This document shows positions 36,180 through 45,306 of a DNA stretch of 64,000 bases, piece after piece (positions within the stretch are counted from its first letter, which is position 1; every line of letters begins with the position of its first letter). Source of the DNA: Salegentibacter sp. (GTDB taxonomy: Bacteria > Bacteroidota > Bacteroidia > Flavobacteriales > Flavobacteriaceae). The notes under the pieces are model-generated. The model worked only from the letters and a program-made list of their open reading frames with translations, did not search any database and was not told where the DNA came from. The position numbers and the translations under genes are program-made. The stretch spans positions 4,404,514-4,468,513 of the forward strand of contig CP051246.1 in the NCBI GenBank assembly GCA_017795085.1, in the 5' to 3' direction.

Positions 36180-37322
36180 ATGCAAAAGTTACCTTTAAAA
36201 TTAGCGAAAAATTTAGAAATGAGAAAGCAGAAAAATGCTTTCCGAAGTCTGAGCATGTTTGAAAACGGGATTGATTTTTTTTCAAACGATTATCTGGGTT
36301 TTGCGGCTTCTTCTAAAATTGCTAAAGATGCTCAGGCAATTTTAAAGGAGTTTAGCCTGGGTAAAAACGGTGCTACCGGTTCTCGCCTGCTTTCAGGCAA
36401 TAACAGGCTATTTGAAGCTACAGAAGCTTATCTGGCCAGTTTTCACCAAACGGGAGCCGCACTTATTTTTAATTCCGGTTATGATGCTAATTTGGGCGTT
36501 ATTGGAAGTATTCCGCAGCGAGGCGATGTAATTTTATACGATGAACTTTCTCACGCTTCCATTCGGGATGCTATTGGCTTAAGCACGGCTAAAGCATACA
36601 AATTTTCACATAATAATATTGACGCTTTAAGAAATCGACTCAAGAAATTTAGTGAAAAAGCCGATGAAATTTATATCGTTACCGAATCGGTTTTTTCTAT
36701 GGATGGCGATATGGCACCTTTAAGAAAAATAGCTGATTTAGCTGAGGAATTCAATGCGTTTCTTATTGTAGATGAAGCTCACGCTACCGGGGTTTTTGGT
36801 GAAAAAGGGGAAGGCCTTGTGGCTGAGTTGGGTATTGAAAATCAGGTTTTTGCCAGGATCAATACTTTTGGAAAAGCGATTGGCGCCCACGGCGCAGTGA
36901 TTCTGGGGAGTGAAATACTAAAAAATTACCTGGTGAATTTTGCCCGAAGTTTTATTTATACAACGGCTATGCCACCTCATAGCCTGGGGGTGATTTTAGC
37001 AGTTTACCGTTATCTGGAAACTGAAAATTATGAGATCAAAAAACTCAAAAACCTGATTGTATTCTTTAAAAAAGAGCTTTTTTATAAAAATTTAGATCAT
37101 GTTTTTCTAAAAAGTGAGACTCCAGTGCAGTCCTGCATTATTTCGGGTAATTCCAGGGTAAAAGAGGCAGCTTTACTTTTAAAAAAAGAAGGTTTTACAA
37201 TAAAGCCTATCCTGTCGCCAACCGTGCCGGAAGGTGTAGAACGGCTACGGATTTGCCTTCATAGTTTTAATTCGGAAAAAGAAATAAAACAGCTTCTTGA
37301 AATTTTAGCTAACTTTATATAA
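36180..37322 (+). CDS. bioF: 8-amino-7-oxononanoate synthase
   Basis: 380 residues. PLP enzyme that joins a pimeloyl thioester and alanine in the first committed step of biotin ring synthesis. Family motifs: FFSNDYLGFAASSKI near residue 33, GATGSRLLSGNNRL near 64, the EAHATG-type LIVDEAHATGVFGEKGEG near 200, and the PLP-binding Lys in INTFGKAIGAHGAVI near 237. First gene of the biotin region. Its stop overlaps the start of the DUF2007 gene (TAATG), so the two are translationally coupled. Confidence 0.95.
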   Translation: MQKLPLKLAKNLEMRKQKNAFRSLSMFENGIDFFSNDYLGFAASSKIAKDAQAILKEFSLGKNGATGSRLLSGNNRLFEATEAYLASFHQTGAALIFNSGYDANLGVIGSIPQRGDVILYDELSHASIRDAIGLSTAKAYKFSHNNIDALRNRLKKFSEKADEIYIVTESVFSMDGDMAPLRKIADLAEEFNAFLIVDEAHATGVFGEKGEGLVAELGIENQVFARINTFGKAIGAHGAVILGSEILKNYLVNFARSFIYTTAMPPHSLGVILAVYRYLETENYEIKKLKNLIVFFKKELFYKNLDHVFLKSETPVQSCIISGNSRVKEAALLLKKEGFTIKPILSPTVPEGVERLRICLHSFNSEKEIKQLLEILANFI

Positions 37323-38293: not shown

Positions 38294-38911
38294 ATGAAAC
38301 ACACCTATTTTGTAACCGGGATCGGTACTGAAGTTGGAAAAACAATAATTTCCGCAATACTAACCGAAGCTCTGAAAGCCGATTATTGGAAACCCATTCA
38401 GGCGGGCGATCTCGATAATTCCGATACACATAAAGTAAAACGACTGGTTTCTAATAAAAAAACTCAATTTCATCCTAATAGTTTTGCGCTCAAAACACCA
38501 ATGAGTCCGCATGCCGCTGCTGAAATTGATAAAGTTAAGGTCACTTCAGAAAAGATAAATCCGCCAAAAATTGAAAATAATTTAGTTGTTGAAGGTGCCG
38601 GCGGTTTATTAGTGCCCATCAATAATAAAGAGACCATTGCCGATTTGATAAAGCCGGAGTATCGGGTGATTTTGGTCTCCCGGCATTATCTGGGGAGTAT
38701 CAATCATACACTTTTAAGCCTGGAAGTTTTAAAAGCCCGTGGATTAGATTGTCTCGGAATAATTTTTAGCGGTGAAGAAAACAAAACCACTGAATCAATT
38801 ATTGAAAAAATGGGTAAAGTTCCAATCTTGGGTCGCATAGAGGAAGAACCCTATTTTGATAAAAATGTGGTGTTGGAATATGCTGAAAAGTTGAGAAAGG
38901 AATTGGGTTAA
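38294..38911 (+). CDS. bioD: dethiobiotin synthase
   Basis: 205 residues. Cytoplasmic ATP-dependent carboxylase that closes the ureido ring of biotin. P-loop TGIGTEVGKTIISAIL near residue 8-23, the substrate Lys in YWKPIQAG near 38 and EGAGGLLVP near 103, all normal for BioD. It is separated from the DUF2007 gene by the acetyltransferase gene, and the 56-base gap before it contains a REP-like half (ATCCTGAGTTGATTTCAGG). Confidence 0.94.
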   Translation: MKHTYFVTGIGTEVGKTIISAILTEALKADYWKPIQAGDLDNSDTHKVKRLVSNKKTQFHPNSFALKTPMSPHAAAEIDKVKVTSEKINPPKIENNLVVEGAGGLLVPINNKETIADLIKPEYRVILVSRHYLGSINHTLLSLEVLKARGLDCLGIIFSGEENKTTESIIEKMGKVPILGRIEEEPYFDKNVVLEYAEKLRKELG

Positions 38912-39092: not shown

Positions 39093-40409
39093 ATGTCAGA
39101 TTCAAACATAAATCCGGAATCAAATCCTCTCCCTTTCGGGGGGAGAAGTCTACAATTTCGCGATAAAAAACACCTTTGGCACCCGCTTACCCAACATAAA
39201 ATTGCCCCGGAAGCTTTACCTATTATTAAAGCCAAAAACTGTATTTTAACCAGTGAAGACAAAAAAGAATATATAGACGGCATTGCTTCCTGGTACACGG
39301 CAATGTATGGGCATTGCAATGAGTTTATTATTGCAAAAGTCACTGAACAAATGCAAAACCTGGATCAGGTGGTTTTTAGCGGATTTACCCACGAACCGGC
39401 CGTAAAACTTTCAGAAGAGCTAATTAAAATTTTACCCAAAGGCCAACAAAAACTTTTTTTTAATGATAATGGGTCTACGGCTACTGAAATTGGGATTAAA
39501 ATGGCTTTACAATATCACCATAATCAGGGAAATAATCGCAATGTGATGTTGGCTTTTGAAGAAGGTTTTCATGGCGATACCTTTGGTGCGATGTCCGTTT
39601 CAGGACTTTCGGTCTATAACGGTGCTTTTGAAGAACATTTTATTGAAGTTTTGCGTTTGCCGGTTCCTAATGGAAAAAATAATACGGAAGTTTTAGAAAA
39701 ACTTAAAAGCTTGATTGCTGAAAATAATATTGCCGGTTTTATCTACGAACCTTTAGTTCAGGGCGCTGCAGGAATGAAAATGCACGATCCTGAAGGTTTG
39801 AATGAGATTTTAAAAATCTGCAAAGAGAATGAAATTATTTGCGTGGCCGATGAGGTGATGACCGGTTTTGGTAAAACGGGGAGATATTTTGCTTCCGATT
39901 ATGTAGTGACCAAACCCGATGTGGTTTGTCTTTCAAAAGCACTTACTGCGGGTTTATTACCTATGGGACTTACCACTTGTTCGCAAAAGGTGTATGATGC
40001 TTTTTATTCCGAAGATATATCAAAAGGGCTTTTTCACGGGCATACTTACTCGGCTAATCCGCTAGCTTGTGCTGCGGCCTTGGCGGGGATTGAACTACTG
40101 GTTTCTGATGAAATTCAACAGAAAATTGAGGAAGTACAGCAATGGCATCGTGAATTTGATAAAAAAATTAAAAATCATCCTAAAGTAACTAATCAAAGGC
40201 AGCTAGGGGTAATTTACGCTTTCGATTTGAATGTGGAAATGGAGCGTTATGGAAACTTGCGAAACGAACTTTTTAAACACTTTATGGATTCAGGTATTTT
40301 TCTCCGGCCTTTGGGCAGTACGATTTATATTTTGGCACCTTTTACTATTTCACAAGAAGAAATGAACCACATATATGAAAGTATAGAAGTAGCGCTAGAG
40401 AAGTTTTAA
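39093..40409 (+). CDS. bioA: adenosylmethionine--8-amino-7-oxononanoate transaminase
   Basis: 438 residues. PLP aminotransferase that converts 7-keto- to 7,8-diaminopelargonate with S-adenosylmethionine as amino donor. Family motifs: KKHLWHPLTQHKIAPEALPI near residue 24, DGIASWYTAMYGHCN near 54, NDNGSTATEIGIKMALQYH near 113, EGFHGDTFGAMSVSG, and the PLP-lysine in LSKALTAGLLPMGLTT near 283. The N-terminus is about 15 residues longer than usual, and the extra codons contain a small palindrome (TCTCCC/GGGAGA at 39128-39146), as if a repeat had been inserted in frame. Confidence 0.95.
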   Translation: MSDSNINPESNPLPFGGRSLQFRDKKHLWHPLTQHKIAPEALPIIKAKNCILTSEDKKEYIDGIASWYTAMYGHCNEFIIAKVTEQMQNLDQVVFSGFTHEPAVKLSEELIKILPKGQQKLFFNDNGSTATEIGIKMALQYHHNQGNNRNVMLAFEEGFHGDTFGAMSVSGLSVYNGAFEEHFIEVLRLPVPNGKNNTEVLEKLKSLIAENNIAGFIYEPLVQGAAGMKMHDPEGLNEILKICKENEIICVADEVMTGFGKTGRYFASDYVVTKPDVVCLSKALTAGLLPMGLTTCSQKVYDAFYSEDISKGLFHGHTYSANPLACAAALAGIELLVSDEIQQKIEEVQQWHREFDKKIKNHPKVTNQRQLGVIYAFDLNVEMERYGNLRNELFKHFMDSGIFLRPLGSTIYILAPFTISQEEMNHIYESIEVALEKF

Positions 40410-40531
40410 GGCTGTGAGTACGAAATTTCATATTTTGGAATTATTTGCTAAATCATCCCGGGCTCCAATCTCGAATCTAAGTTGAATGGATTGATTAGCG
40501 GTAATTGATTATTGAAATTTCCAGTCTAAAA

Positions 40532-40563
40532 TTGAGTCACCTGAGATTTAGCCCGTATTTTTG
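40532..40563 (+). promoter_or_regulatory. promoter of the biotin-region ketoacyl synthase
   Basis: TTG at 40532-40534, a 21-base spacer and TATTTTTG at 40556-40563. Transcription should start near 40570, just before the TTG start codon at 40581. The gap between bioA and this gene (171 bases) otherwise shows nothing. Confidence 0.55.
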
Positions 40564-40580
40564 CTGAAAAACTTTTGTAA

Positions 40581-41729
40581 TTGGAATCACCGATTTATAT
40601 CAAAGCGATTTCAAGTGTTTCAGCACTTGGAAATTCTTCAGAAGAAATTTGGGGAAATTATCAACTTCCGAAGCATTTTTTATCTAAAAGAAAATTTGGG
40701 GAAGATGAAGTTTTTGCAGGATTTCTTCCGCAGCAATTGCAGGAGGAGATTGAAAAGCTTAGAACCAACCTCCCCAATTTTAAAAATCTTGATCCAACAG
40801 TGCTCCTTGCTATTTTTTCTTCCAGAAAAATTCTGGCTGAGGCCGGTTGGCAAAATGAAAAAAATATTGGGATAAATATTGGTAGCTCGCGAGGTGCCAC
40901 TTCACTTTTCGAAAAATATCATCGGGAATTTATTGAAACCGGGAAAACTGCTGTAACTACTTCGCCAGCTACAACGCTGGGGAATATTTCTTCCTGGGTG
41001 GCGCAGGATTTACAGGTTCAGGGTCCTCATTTTTCTCATAGTGTAACCTGCTCAACCGGTTTACACTCGGTATTAAATGCTATTGCCTGGATGCAGGCCG
41101 GGATAAGTGATAAGTTTTTGGCGGGTGGAAGTGAGGCAGCTTTAACCCCGTTTACTATTTCCCAAATGAAAGCGATGAAAATTTACGCATCTGAAAACTT
41201 AGATTTTCCGTGCCGGGCTTTAGATATTGATAAAAAGCGAAATTCTATGGTTTTGGGGGAGGCAGCTGGGGTTTTGGCTCTTGAAAAAGAAAATCAAAAT
41301 GCTTTGGCAAAGATTTCAGGTATTGGTTTTGCCACCGAGCAGGTGAAACACAGTGCTGCCATTTCAAAAAACGGGGAATCTTTACAGCAGGCTATGAAAA
41401 TGGCTTTAGGTGAAAATAAGCATGTTGATGCGGTAGTAATGCACGCTCCCGGCACGATAAAAGGAGACCTTTCTGAAGTGAATGCAATACGAGCTATTTT
41501 TGATGATAAAATACCTGCTTTAACCACCAATAAATGGAAACTGGGTCATACTTTTGCAGCTTCGGGAATTTTAAACCTGGAGCTTGCCCTTTTAATGCTT
41601 CAGAAAAATAAATTTATTTCCGTACCTTATTCAACAACGAGTAAATCGCCGAAAAAATTAGAAAAAGTTTTGGTTAATGCCGTAGGCTTTGGCGGAAATG
41701 CGGTTTCCCTATTGATAGAGAAGGCTTAA
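40581..41729 (+). CDS. beta-ketoacyl-ACP synthase (FabF-like) in the biotin cluster
   Basis: 382 residues, starting with TTG. Thiolase-fold condensing enzyme with a complete Cys-His-His triad: Cys157 in SVTCSTGLHSVL, His288 in VMHAPGTIKGD and His323 in KWKLGHTFAASGILN; GEAAGVLALEK and NAVGFGGNAV are also typical. It is shorter than housekeeping FabF (about 410) and more diverged. Placed between bioA and bioB, it could supply or extend the pimeloyl precursor; no bioC or bioH is visible in this window. Such placement recurs in Flavobacteriia by memory. A housekeeping role in fatty acid synthesis is less likely given the position. Function is inferred. Confidence 0.85.
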   Translation: MESPIYIKAISSVSALGNSSEEIWGNYQLPKHFLSKRKFGEDEVFAGFLPQQLQEEIEKLRTNLPNFKNLDPTVLLAIFSSRKILAEAGWQNEKNIGINIGSSRGATSLFEKYHREFIETGKTAVTTSPATTLGNISSWVAQDLQVQGPHFSHSVTCSTGLHSVLNAIAWMQAGISDKFLAGGSEAALTPFTISQMKAMKIYASENLDFPCRALDIDKKRNSMVLGEAAGVLALEKENQNALAKISGIGFATEQVKHSAAISKNGESLQQAMKMALGENKHVDAVVMHAPGTIKGDLSEVNAIRAIFDDKIPALTTNKWKLGHTFAASGILNLELALLMLQKNKFISVPYSTTSKSPKKLEKVLVNAVGFGGNAVSLLIEKA

Positions 41730-41779
41730 GCCGGTTTGAAAAACTTTTTTTCCCGGCCTTACGGTAACGCGAGTTTTTA

Positions 41780-41787
41780 TATTTTTG
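41780..41787 (+). promoter_or_regulatory. -7 promoter box of bioB
   Basis: TATTTTTG at 41780-41787, 18 bases before the bioB ATG at 41806. An in-frame TTG at 41785 lies inside this box and is therefore not the start codon. Confidence 0.45.
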
Positions 41788-41805
41788 AACAAGAATTTGT
41801 ATATT

Positions 41806-42894
41806 ATGGCAAGACACAATTGGACTAAAGAAGAAATCCTTGAAATTTACAATAAGCCTCTAATGGAACTGCTTTATGAAGCAGCCACAATTCACCGAAA
41901 ACATCACGACCCCAATACTGTACAGGTTTCAACCTTACTTTCTATAAAAACCGGAGGATGTCCCGAAGATTGTGGGTATTGCCCGCAGGCGGCTCGTTAC
42001 CATACCGATATTGAAGGAAACGATTTAATGAGTGTAAACCAGGTGAAAGCCCAGGCTTTACGAGCTAAAGCTGCCGGGAGTTCCCGGGTTTGTATGGGGG
42101 CTGCGTGGCGAAATGTAAAAGACGGACGAGAGTTTGATAATGTGCTGGAGATGGTGCGTAGCATCAATAAATTGGATATGGAGGTTTGTTGTACCCTAGG
42201 AATGCTTACCGAAAATCAGGCGAAACGTCTTGCTGAGGCTGGTTTATATGCTTACAACCACAATCTAGATACTTCAGAAGAATATTATAAAGAAGTGATT
42301 TCAACCCGTGGCTATGAAGATCGTTTGAAAACCATAGATAATGTAAGAAAAACTAATGTTACGGTTTGTAGCGGTGGAATTATAGGAATGGGCGAGAGTA
42401 TTGACGATCGAGCGGGAATGCTGGTTGCACTTTCCACTTTGAACCCACAGCCTGAGTCGGTGCCAATTAATGCTTTGGTGCCTGTAGAAGGTACTCCTAT
42501 GGAAGAAGAAGAGCCGGTTTCTATTTGGGAAATGCTGCGAATGGTGGCTACTACCCGAATTGTGATGCCGGAAACCCAGGTTCGTTTAAGCGCCGGAAGA
42601 ACCAAAATGAGCCGGGAAGGTCAGGCGATGTGTTTCTTTGCGGGTGCGAATTCAATTTTTGCGGGCGATAAACTTTTAACTACTCCAAATCCTGATGTAA
42701 ATGAGGATATGGAAATGTTTAAACAGCTTGGCTTAAATCCGCAAAAAGCTTTTGAGAAAAAAGAAAAGCCGGAAAGTGTAAGTGCTGAAGAGTCGCAATA
42801 TCAAAGTCAGGACGAAAAACCAAAATGGTCACGTCCCGGACATAAGATTGAACGCAATCTCGAGGCACAACAAAAGACAAAAACCGAAGCCTAA
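41806..42894 (+). CDS. bioB: biotin synthase
   Basis: 362 residues from the ATG at 41806. Radical SAM enzyme that inserts sulfur into dethiobiotin. The 4Fe-4S cluster motif CxxxCxxC is in [19 protein letters not shown] near residue 45-60; the second cluster ligands lie in RVCMGAAWR and EVCCTLGML, and [14 protein letters not shown] and [13 protein letters not shown] are also present. The last ~45 residues ([13 protein letters not shown]... to TKTEA) form a charged, low-complexity tail beyond the usual end, which is common in Flavobacteriia. Two cupin genes follow closely. Confidence 0.96.
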
Positions 42895-42911
42895 ATCTAA
42901 ATTAAGGCATC

Positions 42912-43781
42912 GTGAGACTTCAGTTAGAAAATATACCACGTGTAAAGAGACTTTCAAAAGAAGGCTTTCAAAAGGAATTTTTTTTGCCGAAAAAACCTGT
43001 GGTTTTTGAAGATTTAAGTAAAGATTGGCCGGCAGTCAACAATTGGGATTTTGAGTATTTTAGGAAAAAAGCCGGGGATGTAGTGGTGCCGCTTTATGAT
43101 GGAAAACCTGCAAAGGCTAACGAAAAATCTCACGGTCCTGCAATGAAAATTCCGATGCGGGAATATATCGATATTCTTGAAAAGGGGCCAACCGATTTGC
43201 GGATGTTTTTCTTCAATTTATTGCAAAATTGCCCTGATTTGACCGATGATTTTAAATATCCGGATTTGGGGGTGAAGTTTTTTAAAAAATTACCGGTTTT
43301 ATTTGTTGGTGGTGCCGGAAGTAGCGTAGTAATGCATTACGATATGGATTTGGCCAATAACTTTCATTTTAATTTTACCGGTGAAAAAAGGGTGATTTTA
43401 TATCCGCCTGAAGAGACAAAATACCTTTATCACGTACCGCATTCCATCGTGAGTATGGAAATAATCAATATGGATAAACCTGATTTTGAAAAATATCCGG
43501 CCCTTGGCAAAGCCAAAGGTTACGAAACCCGGTTAAAACATGGTGAAGCACTCTATATTCCCAGTAAATGGTGGCATTATGTGAAATATGAAACTCCAAG
43601 TTTGTCTTTAACGCTTCGTTCTTTACCAAAGGAGCCGGGAAAAATTATAGAAGTGCTTAAAAATTTGGTTATTACTCGTAATTATGATAATCTAATGCGT
43701 AAATGGAAAGGTCAGGATTGGATTGATTACAAAAACCGAAAAGCCATTGAAAATACGCACAGAAGTGCAGGAATTGATTAA
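42912..43781 (+). CDS. JmjC-like cupin (cupin_8), first of a tandem pair
   Basis: 289 residues, starting with GTG 17 bases after bioB. A cupin_8/JmjC-like protein of the 2-oxoglutarate, Fe(II)-dependent oxygenase superfamily. The metal triad is visible as His142 and Asp144 in VVMHYDMDLANN and His222 in SKWWHYVKYE; the N-terminal helix region KPVVFEDLSKDWPAVNNWD is typical of the family (FIH/JMJD-like). The last ~40 residues (RNYDNLMRKWKGQDWIDYKN) are shared with the next gene, its evident paralogue. Substrate unknown: protein or small-molecule hydroxylation are both possible. Confidence 0.85.
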   Translation: MRLQLENIPRVKRLSKEGFQKEFFLPKKPVVFEDLSKDWPAVNNWDFEYFRKKAGDVVVPLYDGKPAKANEKSHGPAMKIPMREYIDILEKGPTDLRMFFFNLLQNCPDLTDDFKYPDLGVKFFKKLPVLFVGGAGSSVVMHYDMDLANNFHFNFTGEKRVILYPPEETKYLYHVPHSIVSMEIINMDKPDFEKYPALGKAKGYETRLKHGEALYIPSKWWHYVKYETPSLSLTLRSLPKEPGKIIEVLKNLVITRNYDNLMRKWKGQDWIDYKNRKAIENTHRSAGID

Positions 43782-43790
43782 TGTTGCTTG

Positions 43791-44663
43791 ATGATGAAAG
43801 ATAAATTAAATTTAAAGCCTGTCGAGCGGGTCAAAACCATTACCCGAAAGGATTTTATTGATAACTACGTAAAGCCTCAAAAACCTGTTGTGGTTGAACG
43901 TTTAGTTGAAGATTGGCCGGCTTTAAAAAAGTGGGATTTAGAGTATATAAAATCGGTTGCGGGGGAGAAAATTGTACCGCTTTATGATAACCGTCCGGTT
44001 TCGGCAAAATATAAATTTAACGAGCCACATGCTAAAATGAAAATGGCAGAATATGTTGACTTGTTAAAATCGGGCCCTACCAATTATCGTATTTTTCTTT
44101 ACCATTTATTAAAGGAAGTTCCCGCGCTTCAGAAAGATTTTAAATTCCCTGATGTGGGACTTCGTTTTATCAAAAAGTTACCGACTTTATTTTTTGGGGG
44201 TGAAAATTCAAAGGTATTTATGCATTATGATATTGATTTTGCCAATATCCTGCATTTTCATTTCCACGGAAAAAAGCAGTGTATCCTTTATCCACCTTCG
44301 GAAACCAAATATCTTTATAAAGTTCCGCATGCGTTAATTTCTCATAAGCAGATCGATTATACGAATCCCGATTTTGATAAATTCCCTATGCTTAAAAAAG
44401 CTGAAGGTTTCGTGACTGAATTGAATCATGGCGAATGTCTTTACATGCCAGAAGGATACTGGCACCAAATGACCTATTTAACGCCGGGTTTCTCGATGAG
44501 TTTAAGGGCATTTCCACGTGGAGTGACTAATGTGTCCAAAGCGGTTTATAACCTGCTCTTTATGCGAAATTTTGATAATTATATGCGTAAGTGGAAAGGC
44601 CAAAAATGGATTGACTATAAAAACGAGCAGGCAATAAAGCGTACGGAGCGAATGAAAAACTAA
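43791..44663 (+). CDS. JmjC-like cupin (cupin_8), second of a tandem pair
   Basis: About 290 residues; starts with ATG at 43791 (an in-frame TTG at 43788 and a second ATG at 43794 are alternatives). Clearly homologous along its length to the preceding gene: KPVVVERLVEDWPALKKWD, the metal ligands in VFMHYDIDFANILHFHF and GYWHQMTYL, and the shared C-terminus RNFDNYMRKWKGQKWIDYKN. The two start codons are 10 bases apart from the previous stop, so they are surely cotranscribed with bioB. The pair probably acts together or as a heterodimer; a role linked to biotin or biotinylation is conjecture. Confidence 0.85.
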   Translation: MMKDKLNLKPVERVKTITRKDFIDNYVKPQKPVVVERLVEDWPALKKWDLEYIKSVAGEKIVPLYDNRPVSAKYKFNEPHAKMKMAEYVDLLKSGPTNYRIFLYHLLKEVPALQKDFKFPDVGLRFIKKLPTLFFGGENSKVFMHYDIDFANILHFHFHGKKQCILYPPSETKYLYKVPHALISHKQIDYTNPDFDKFPMLKKAEGFVTELNHGECLYMPEGYWHQMTYLTPGFSMSLRAFPRGVTNVSKAVYNLLFMRNFDNYMRKWKGQKWIDYKNEQAIKRTERMKN

Positions 44664-44742
44664 AAGAAAGACGGGTTAAAATATGTTTTGTAAAGATCTT
44701 AATAGGTTTTTAAAATCTGTCAGGTTTTAGTTTTTTTAGTAT

Positions 44743-45225
44743 TTAAGTCGGAATTGAATTATTGACCACTTCGTATACCAGGTTGCTTTCATAACCTTTT
44801 TGTGCAAGGTAGCTGATTAGTTTTTGCTTTCTTTTAAAAGTATCAGACTCTTTGGTTAAGGCCAATTTCTTTTCGGCAAGTTGCTCCAGGCTTTCGTAAT
44901 ATTCTGTTTCTTTAATTTCGGTTAGCGCTAATTTAATAATTGGAGTGGAAATTTCTCTTTTTTTAAGCTCTTGTTTGATCTTTATGCGGCCCCATTTTTT
45001 TATACGGAACTTTCCCCGAACAAAACTTCTGGCAAAGCGTTCTTCATTCAGAAAACCTTCTTCCATCAGTTTGATAATGATATGCTCCCGGGCTGCAGGA
45101 ATCATATTCATGGCTTTTAATTTTTTTTCTACTTCTTTATGAGAGCGGTCGCGGTAAGCACAGAACTGCATGAGTTTAGCTGTAGCTTCTTCTAGTGTGT
45201 ATGACTTTTTAGGTTTCGGGTTCAC
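44743..45225 (-). CDS. recX: RecA regulator RecX
   Basis: 160 residues, starting with GTG. Helical-repeat protein that modulates RecA filaments. Typical features: the three tandem three-helix units visible through YTLEEATAKLMQFCAYRDRSHKEVEKKL, IIKLMEEGFLNEERFARSFVRGKFRIKKWGRIKIKQELKKR near residue 52-90, and ISTPIIKLALTEI. Length fits the family (about 150-160). It is transcribed downstream of rng but a terminator lies between them; the start region (GTG, then AACCC) shows no Shine-Dalgarno sequence, as usual here. Confidence 0.93.
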   Translation of the reverse strand: MNPKPKKSYTLEEATAKLMQFCAYRDRSHKEVEKKLKAMNMIPAAREHIIIKLMEEGFLNEERFARSFVRGKFRIKKWGRIKIKQELKKREISTPIIKLALTEIKETEYYESLEQLAEKKLALTKESDTFKRKQKLISYLAQKGYESNLVYEVVNNSIPT

Positions 45226-45306
45226 AGTTCAGTGATTCAAAAATAGCTTTAAAATTAGGAAAAATTGGTGGGGAAGCAAGGTTAGGATTTTAGGATATTG
45301 CATAAA

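Follow-up and report, generated by a model that had tools for sequence, protein, structure and literature searches.

The window, the whole 64,000-nucleotide stretch of DNA that we analysed, lies in a Salegentibacter genome of 4.73 Mb on a single contig (G000). Its plus strand carries, in this order, a bioF-like gene, a gene for a small protein, a GNAT-like ORF (labelled by eye), bioD, bioA, a FabF-like ketoacyl synthase gene, bioB and two cupin genes that we call cupA and cupB. A convergent recX gene follows directly beyond cupB. The assigned members are:

36180..37322, plus strand, bioF-like ORF, first of the biotin row (the name bioF is our assumption, assigned by eye; the counterparts in loci L128 and L129 match at 55% and 51%)
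38294..38911, plus strand, bioD (TIGR00347, 124 bits, cut-off 83)
39093..40409, plus strand, bioA (TIGR00508, 524 bits, cut-off 405)
40581..41729, plus strand, FabF-like ketoacyl synthase (PF00109 and PF02801)
41806..42894, plus strand, bioB from ATG 41806, the frame being open from TTG 41785 (TIGR00433, 412 bits, cut-off 225)
42912..43781, plus strand, cupA, JmjC/Cupin_8 oxygenase with a GTG start, 289 residues (PF13621, 132.6 bits; JMJD5, Z 27.2)
43791..44663, plus strand, cupB, JmjC/Cupin_8 oxygenase (PF13621, 122.3 bits; JMJD5, Z 27.1)
44743..45225, minus strand, recX, which bounds the biotin row (PF02631 and two more RecX domains)

The initial annotation had placed the two cupin genes behind bioB, and this position was confirmed, with bioB identified by TIGR00433, 17 bases between bioB and cupA, and 9 bases between cupA and cupB when counted from ATG 43791. 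The cupB frame, which ends at 44663, has start candidates at TTG 43788, ATG 43791 and ATG 43794, and residue numbers for cupB are counted here from TTG 43788. A scan of positions 40400-45300 found no terminator-like site after cupB and four such sites overall, compared to 5.1 in shuffled sequences; promoter-like sites numbered 20 compared to 11.7 (sd 2.8) in shuffles, with 15 of the 20 on the opposite strand.

The ketoacyl synthase of the row has a feature of its own. Where the first catalytic histidine of FabF would be expected, this enzyme and its cluster read H-A-P-G-T (at least 49 of the 59 ketoacyl synthases in the cluster). The second histidine motif was matched in 54 of the 59, and the cysteine pattern in 23, the other 36 falling outside the pattern used. 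Judged from these motifs, the protein may be a condensing enzyme of unusual type that serves pimelate supply.

Both cupin products score well above the PF13621 (Cupin_8) cut-off of 27.4 bits, as do all 50 relatives in our cupin alignment, and the two are 50% identical to each other (141 of 283 aligned residues); a search of their own genome at E 0.001 brought up no PF13621 match besides these two. The related profile PF08007 was touched by 14 of the 50 alignment members, with cupA at 22.3 bits against a cut-off of 22 and cupB at 18.9, in both cases matching just the latter portion of the profile. Matches of cupB to the pore-forming family Epx (13.7 bits against a cut-off of 400; 13 bits, E 0.36) were taken as chance. 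The sites of interest in the two proteins are:

43335..43343, plus strand, cupA metal ligands H142-Y143-D144 (H142 and D144 invariant)
43575..43577, plus strand, cupA distal metal ligand H222 (invariant)
43695..43736, plus strand, cupA C-terminal element MRKWKGQDWIDYKN (predicted helices 242-266 and 268-286)
44223..44231, plus strand, cupB metal ligands H146-Y147-D148 (H146 and D148 invariant)
44274..44276, plus strand, cupB K163, by alignment the counterpart of the JMJD5 2-oxoglutarate lysine K336 (invariant in 176 rows)
44463..44465, plus strand, cupB distal metal ligand H226 (invariant in 176 rows)
44505..44507, plus strand, cupB R240, which takes the position of JMJD5 W414 (unvarying across the subfamily)
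44583..44624, plus strand, cupB C-terminal element MRKWKGQKWIDYKN (predicted helices 246-270 and 272-290)

The columns of the metal triad, HxD...H, do not vary in the 50 aligned relatives or in any of the 176 rows of a wider set, which is drawn from Flavobacteriaceae, from further families of the same order and from different orders, and includes some duplicates. In cupB numbering, the residues unvarying across this set are R101, F103, F135, H146, D148, D150, K163, P221, W225, H226 and R240; K163, which corresponds to K159 of cupA, is the lysine of strand IV. Since the ligands are invariant in 176 of 176 rows, we rejected the idea that the proteins are degenerate, non-catalytic cupins. The element MRKWKGQ-(D/K)-WIDYKN is common to both proteins and lies in their predicted C-terminal helical part, which in cupB (246-290) falls outside the Pfam domain. 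Thus, the initial description of two paralogues with intact His-Asp-His sites and a shared C-terminal element was correct.

Alignment-based AlphaFold2 models of cupB and cupA (mean pLDDT 90.5 and 86.2) both had human JMJD5 as their top solved structure, followed by TYW5, JMJD7 and FIH, which bears out the earlier view that the proteins are oxygenase-like. The cupB model matched JMJD5 with Z 27.1 and an rmsd of 2.2 over 227 residues, and the cupA model with Z 27.2 and an rmsd of 2.0 over 224 residues; phmmer likewise linked both sequences to JMJD5 (E 6.5e-26 for cupB and 4.8e-27 for cupA). The alignment spans nearly the entire JmjC domain of JMJD5/KDM8, an arginyl C-3 hydroxylase (PDB 4aap, 6f4p), with 27-29% identity, a like fold, and the HxD...H ligands and strand IV lysine in common, although cupA and cupB have extra C-terminal helices.

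PMC5862942 gives the JMJD5 metal ligands as H321, D323 and H400 and its 2-oxoglutarate contacts as K336, Y272, S318 and N327. While the ligands and the lysine are retained, Y272, the partner of K336, corresponds to I102 in cupB and M98 in cupA (the position holds Ile, Leu, Met or Val throughout the 176 rows), and S318 to V143 and V139 (Val in 134, Thr in 40 and Ala in 2 of the 176 rows). JMJD5 N327 pairs with N153 of cupB, which is conserved in nearly all family rows and frequently replaced by H, D or S in the others. JMJD5 W414 is replaced by R240 in cupB and R236 in cupA, an arginine in 176 of 176 rows, with R240 and W414 pairing where the alignment ends. In the substrate pocket, E238 of JMJD5, which together with Y243 holds the target arginine, aligns with Y66 of cupB and Y62 of cupA across a gapped loop whose register is unsure; the aspartate beside this tyrosine does not vary among the 143 rows that lie outside the group labelled 'otherOrders' and is present in 15 of the 33 within it. 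Because the counterparts of Y272 and S318 are changed, cofactor binding by the cupins is not a copy of that in JMJD5; the cupins likely have a working Fe(II)/2-oxoglutarate site with a variant cofactor pocket.

The asparaginyl hydroxylase FIH also has a like fold (Z about 21-22, 22-26% identity). Its sequence has the HYD motif, as do the cupins, and resembles theirs just after the lysine, whereas its T196 and W296 correspond to Val and Arg in the cupins. The C-terminal helices of FIH form its dimer, and its C-terminal residues align with part of the C-terminal helices of cupB, to model residue 277. TYW5 (Z 24-25) and JMJD7 (Z 22-23) belong by fold to the same group of small JmjC proteins as the cupins, at about 18-24% identity. 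The substrate of TYW5 is tRNA and those of JMJD7 are GTPases; we found no support for either kind of substrate for the cupins. YcfD/RoxA (JmjC_2), which hydroxylates ribosomal protein L16, is also a bacterial JmjC hydroxylase, but the cupins are far closer to PF13621.

The initial annotation had the cupins attached to bioB. We examined this linkage in the best 80 of at least 587 confirmed loci, picked by similarity, and in a less similarity-biased sample, the 57 Flavobacteriaceae genomes within our sample of the order. Among the matches listed, the nearest relatives by cupB identity belong to Salegentibacter, Gillisia and Christiangramia. In 68 of these 80 loci (the best of at least 587), bioB precedes the cupin on the same strand by less than 1.5 kb, with a median of 97.5 bases between the matched segments in the 68; bioB followed by one cupB-like gene is the usual layout of this best-80 set, and recX lies within 1.5 kb of the cupin in 48 of its loci, convergent in 38 of the 48.

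Of the 57 genomes, 44 had a cupin and 44 had bioB, with both in 35, a cupin alone in 9, bioB alone in 9 and neither in 4. The 44 cupin genomes exclude G143, whose match is weak (45 with it), and include G186, though its copy groups with a second paralogue of G216 (L093 with L099). No dependence of the cupin on bioB was detected in these counts (Fisher p=0.47, ancestry ignored; a weak dependence could escape a sample of 57). Nevertheless, the two genes lie within 3 kb of one another in 27 of the 35 genomes with both and apart in 8, and in all 27 close pairs the cupin is downstream on the same strand. Among the 28 genomes that carry bioA as well as both of these genes, bioB and the cupin are within 3 kb in 23, compared to 13 in which bioB and bioA are within 6 kb. 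Thus, the attachment to bioB is real within Flavobacteriaceae, tight and non-random but not obligatory and not tied to biotin synthesis, and the cupin is usually the last gene of the biotin row.

Two further observations concern these loci. A SET-domain protein (PF00856, 41 bits) is encoded between bioA and the ketoacyl synthase in L002 and L069, with matches in 8 of the 57 family genomes and none in the genome of the window:

L002:4117-4710, plus strand, SET-domain gene (its cluster occurs in 22 of the best 80 of at least 587 loci)

In the 1.3 Mb genome of L098 (G317), bioB is in two stop-bearing pieces and an open cupin frame lies nearly 0.5 Mb away.

The cupin is kept in 9 of the 13 family genomes that lack bioB. 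In L001/L081 (L001 being from Salegentibacter sediminis), cupB sits between an mnhG-like gene and recX, and neither bioB nor cupA was found. A weaker link to biotin than the one originally proposed survives here, since in 5 of the 9 bioB-less cupin genomes a TonB-dependent receptor gene lies within 2.4 kb of the cupin (66 to 2324 bases), with a MocR-type regulator adjoining the receptor in 4 of these 5. Receptor orthologues, defined by at least 51% identity (a cut chosen after seeing the gap in identities), occur in 12 of the 57 genomes: in 10 of 13 that lack bioB and in 2 of 44 that have it, these 2 (G271 and G306) being without bioA and carrying receptor, bioB and cupin in one row. In terms of bioA, the orthologues are found in 12 of 20 genomes without the gene and in 0 of 37 with it (p=2e-7, ancestry ignored). 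At the lower level of 34-37% identity, relatives were seen in another 8 genomes, 5 without bioA (G018, G124, G148, G158 and G211) and 3 with it (G216, G261 and G266). The import marker BioY was found in 0 of the 57 genomes. Given its distribution in bioA-less genomes, we infer that this protein is a candidate outer-membrane receptor for biotin vitamers. Examples are:

L082, 9639-11462, minus strand, receptor
L083, 5275-6771, minus strand, MocR-type gene beside the receptor
L126, 7384-12859, receptor locus
L127, 6588-14414, receptor locus

Within one genus (g3), L128 and L129 have bioF-D-A, the ketoacyl synthase, bioB and the cupin; L127 has the MocR-type gene, the receptor, an SPFH pair, bioB and the cupin; and L088 has the MocR-type gene, the receptor, the SPFH pair and the cupin, with bioB absent. 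In the same genus, G030 carries the receptor but no cupin. These loci can be read as steps by which the synthesis genes were replaced in place by the candidate receptor while the cupin was kept, and such steps fit a biotin-related role and a merely inherited position alike. In some genomes, the receptor-bioB-cupin locus is accompanied by this pair of genes (c94, c95), a unit that includes an SPFH/Band_7 protein:

L085:10150-11580, two-gene SPFH/Band_7 unit
L126:5336-7337, the same unit
L127:10275-12277, the same unit
L088, the same unit

These observations bear on two accounts that tie the cupins to biotin. We rejected a dedicated biotin-synthesis enzyme, because the gene persists in 9 of the 13 bioB-less genomes of the family. 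The main rival to our preferred reading, which we consider unlikely though worth taking seriously, is a biotin-specific oxygenase that acts once biotin is present in the cell. Its target would be a biotin-dependent carboxylase or its carrier protein, the biotin ligase, biotin itself or a vitamer, and it would be of use both to cells that make biotin and to those that import it. The closer tie of bioB to the cupin than to bioA, the swap of synthesis genes for the candidate receptor in g3 with the cupin kept, and the confinement of close receptor orthologues to bioA-less genomes all favour it. In its fuller form, which we hold slightly more tentatively still, a JmjC hydroxylase would be part of biotin use in Flavobacteriaceae, downstream of supply, for example on the carrier protein or carboxylase; acting there, it would stay when the synthesis genes are swapped for a TonB-dependent receptor beside a MocR-type regulator. 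If true, this would make the oxygenase a switch on biotin metabolism, of a kind for which no example is known to us, and it would point to an outer-membrane biotin receptor. However, 9 of 44 bioB-bearing genomes lack the cupin, in keeping with the absence of a detected dependence, and 3 receptor-bearing genomes also lack it. In addition, the biotin-vitamer cargo of the receptor is itself inferred, and the locus could simply be inherited.

Outside the family, the neighbours argue further against a biotin-specific role. The cupin profile matched 135 of 326 genomes sampled from the order, Flavobacteriaceae among them, at E 1e-20 and, at E 1e-50, 28 of 277 genomes of the class and 14 of 177 of another order. 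Within 3-6 genes on each side of the cupin in other families we found no biotin gene save an aminotransferase in L140 (27% identity to BioA); bioB lies about 14 kb from the cupin in L110. Outside the family the neighbours are unrelated genes, and even tandem cupin pairs recur far from bioB, in L108 and L130-L132, with bioB on another contig or more than 1 Mb off. Frequent occurrence of the pair away from biotin genes, which the initial annotation had named as counting against its view, was thus borne out in part. The pairs of L130-L132 adjoin a HemW gene (checked in L130), and one L131 copy holds a stop. Neighbours were HMM-checked on one example each for MutS, UvrB, RecQ, L13, S2, EF-Ts, FtsY, SucD and HemW, and the remaining ones were assigned by cluster or by eye; they include sucD in L145 and murC/murG-like genes in L147 and L148.

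Some of these neighbours raise the idea of a hydroxylase of ribosomal proteins or translation factors, a Bacteroidota counterpart of YcfD and JMJD5 and hence a special case of our preferred reading. The cupin lies behind an rplM-rpsI-rpsB-tsf row on the same strand in L136 and L137, divergent beside that row in L143, and behind ftsY in L135, and JMJD5 and YcfD hydroxylate arginines of ribosomal proteins S6 and L16, respectively (PMC5862942). However, the rplM-tsf row adjoins the cupin in only 3 of the 16 loci of one survey, two of them from one genus, and other lineages differ; moreover, the arginine-binding E238 and S318 of JMJD5 align with Tyr and Val in the proteins of the window. We regard this narrower version as improbable.

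Several lineages have cupin relatives near DNA-repair genes (L101-L107, L146, L151-L153 and L157, besides the recX of the window at 44743-45225), a neighbourhood that may be chance. A nucleic-acid hydroxylase or demethylase tied to DNA repair would account for mutS in 7 loci, adjacent to the cupin or one called ORF apart, for uvrB in 4 (L151-L153 and L157), for the C-terminal part of a RecQ-like gene in L146 and for the frequent proximity of recX within the family, and the second-best fold match, TYW5, is a tRNA hydroxylase. Against this, the category was picked after the fact, recX is mostly convergent with the cupin, and Pfam searches of 50 subfamily members found no nucleic-acid-binding domain, making such a role very unlikely.

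The initial annotation had treated the two cupins as a unit, and this part did not stand: the usual unit is one cupin, with a single copy in 62 and a pair in 18 of the best 80 of at least 587 loci, and cupB occurs without cupA in L001 and L014. All 18 pairs of this best-80 set lie behind bioB, which is more than expected by chance, with matched segments -5 to 14 bases apart. Among the matches listed, the second tandem copy (cupA) is found only in Salegentibacter, Gillisia, Christiangramia/Gramella and Zunongwangia. A tree of 87 rows (short search, midpoint root, long-branch warning) places the 11 cupA rows in one clade with support 100, separate from the family's cupB-like rows that are linked to bioB, such that cupA may be either an old copy retained only here or a fast-changing tandem copy. 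The start codon of cupA is GTG in the window and, by script-placed starts, non-ATG in 17 of the 18 loci: 13 have TTG and 3 have GTG, and in L013 the called start is CTG, with an in-frame TTG two codons earlier; L012 has ATG.

An obligate heterodimer of a catalytic and a helper subunit is hardly credible: despite the tandem order of all 18 pairs and the helices that both proteins have in the region aligning with C-terminal FIH residues, every metal ligand is kept in both proteins, and the single-copy loci led us to set aside a fixed heterodimer as the basic unit.

With these alternatives weighed, the reading that we favour, with moderate confidence, is that CupA and CupB are Fe(II)/2-oxoglutarate hydroxylases of a Bacteroidota JmjC subfamily, probably protein-acting, and not a step of biotin synthesis. 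That last point follows from the retention of the gene in bioB-less genomes without a detected dependence on bioB, from cupB in L001/L081, and from the other neighbours in other families. As modelled, the core is a JMJD5/FIH-like double-stranded beta-helix with a helical C-terminal tail. The H-x-D...H residues would bind Fe(II), K163 would hold the far carboxylate of 2-oxoglutarate, probably with help from R240, and O2 and 2-oxoglutarate would yield a ferryl species that hydroxylates a C-H bond. By analogy with JMJD5 and FIH, and judged from the fold family, the substrate is probably a protein side chain, although TYW5, which has the same fold, acts on tRNA; the C-terminal helices may make a dimer as they do in FIH. 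The cupin gene is presumably co-transcribed with bioB. Against this reading, the tie to bioB, closer than that between bioB and bioA, and the candidate receptor near the cupin in 5 of 9 bioB-less genomes go beyond what one would expect of a pure passenger. In the PMC literature, which leaves most subscription papers uncovered, we found nothing joining JmjC or cupin genes with bioB or with Flavobacterium, nor biotin receptor or MocR findings with these genes.

Taken together, the simplest account is a JmjC hydroxylase of general role, most likely acting on protein, that is seated in the biotin row in Flavobacteriaceae. It represents a strongly conserved JmjC subfamily of a large bacterial phylum with a variant active site, marked by the invariant arginine at the place of JMJD5 W414, and the survey of its loci has also turned up a candidate outer-membrane receptor for biotin vitamers, open to experimental test, that would substitute for the synthesis genes in place.
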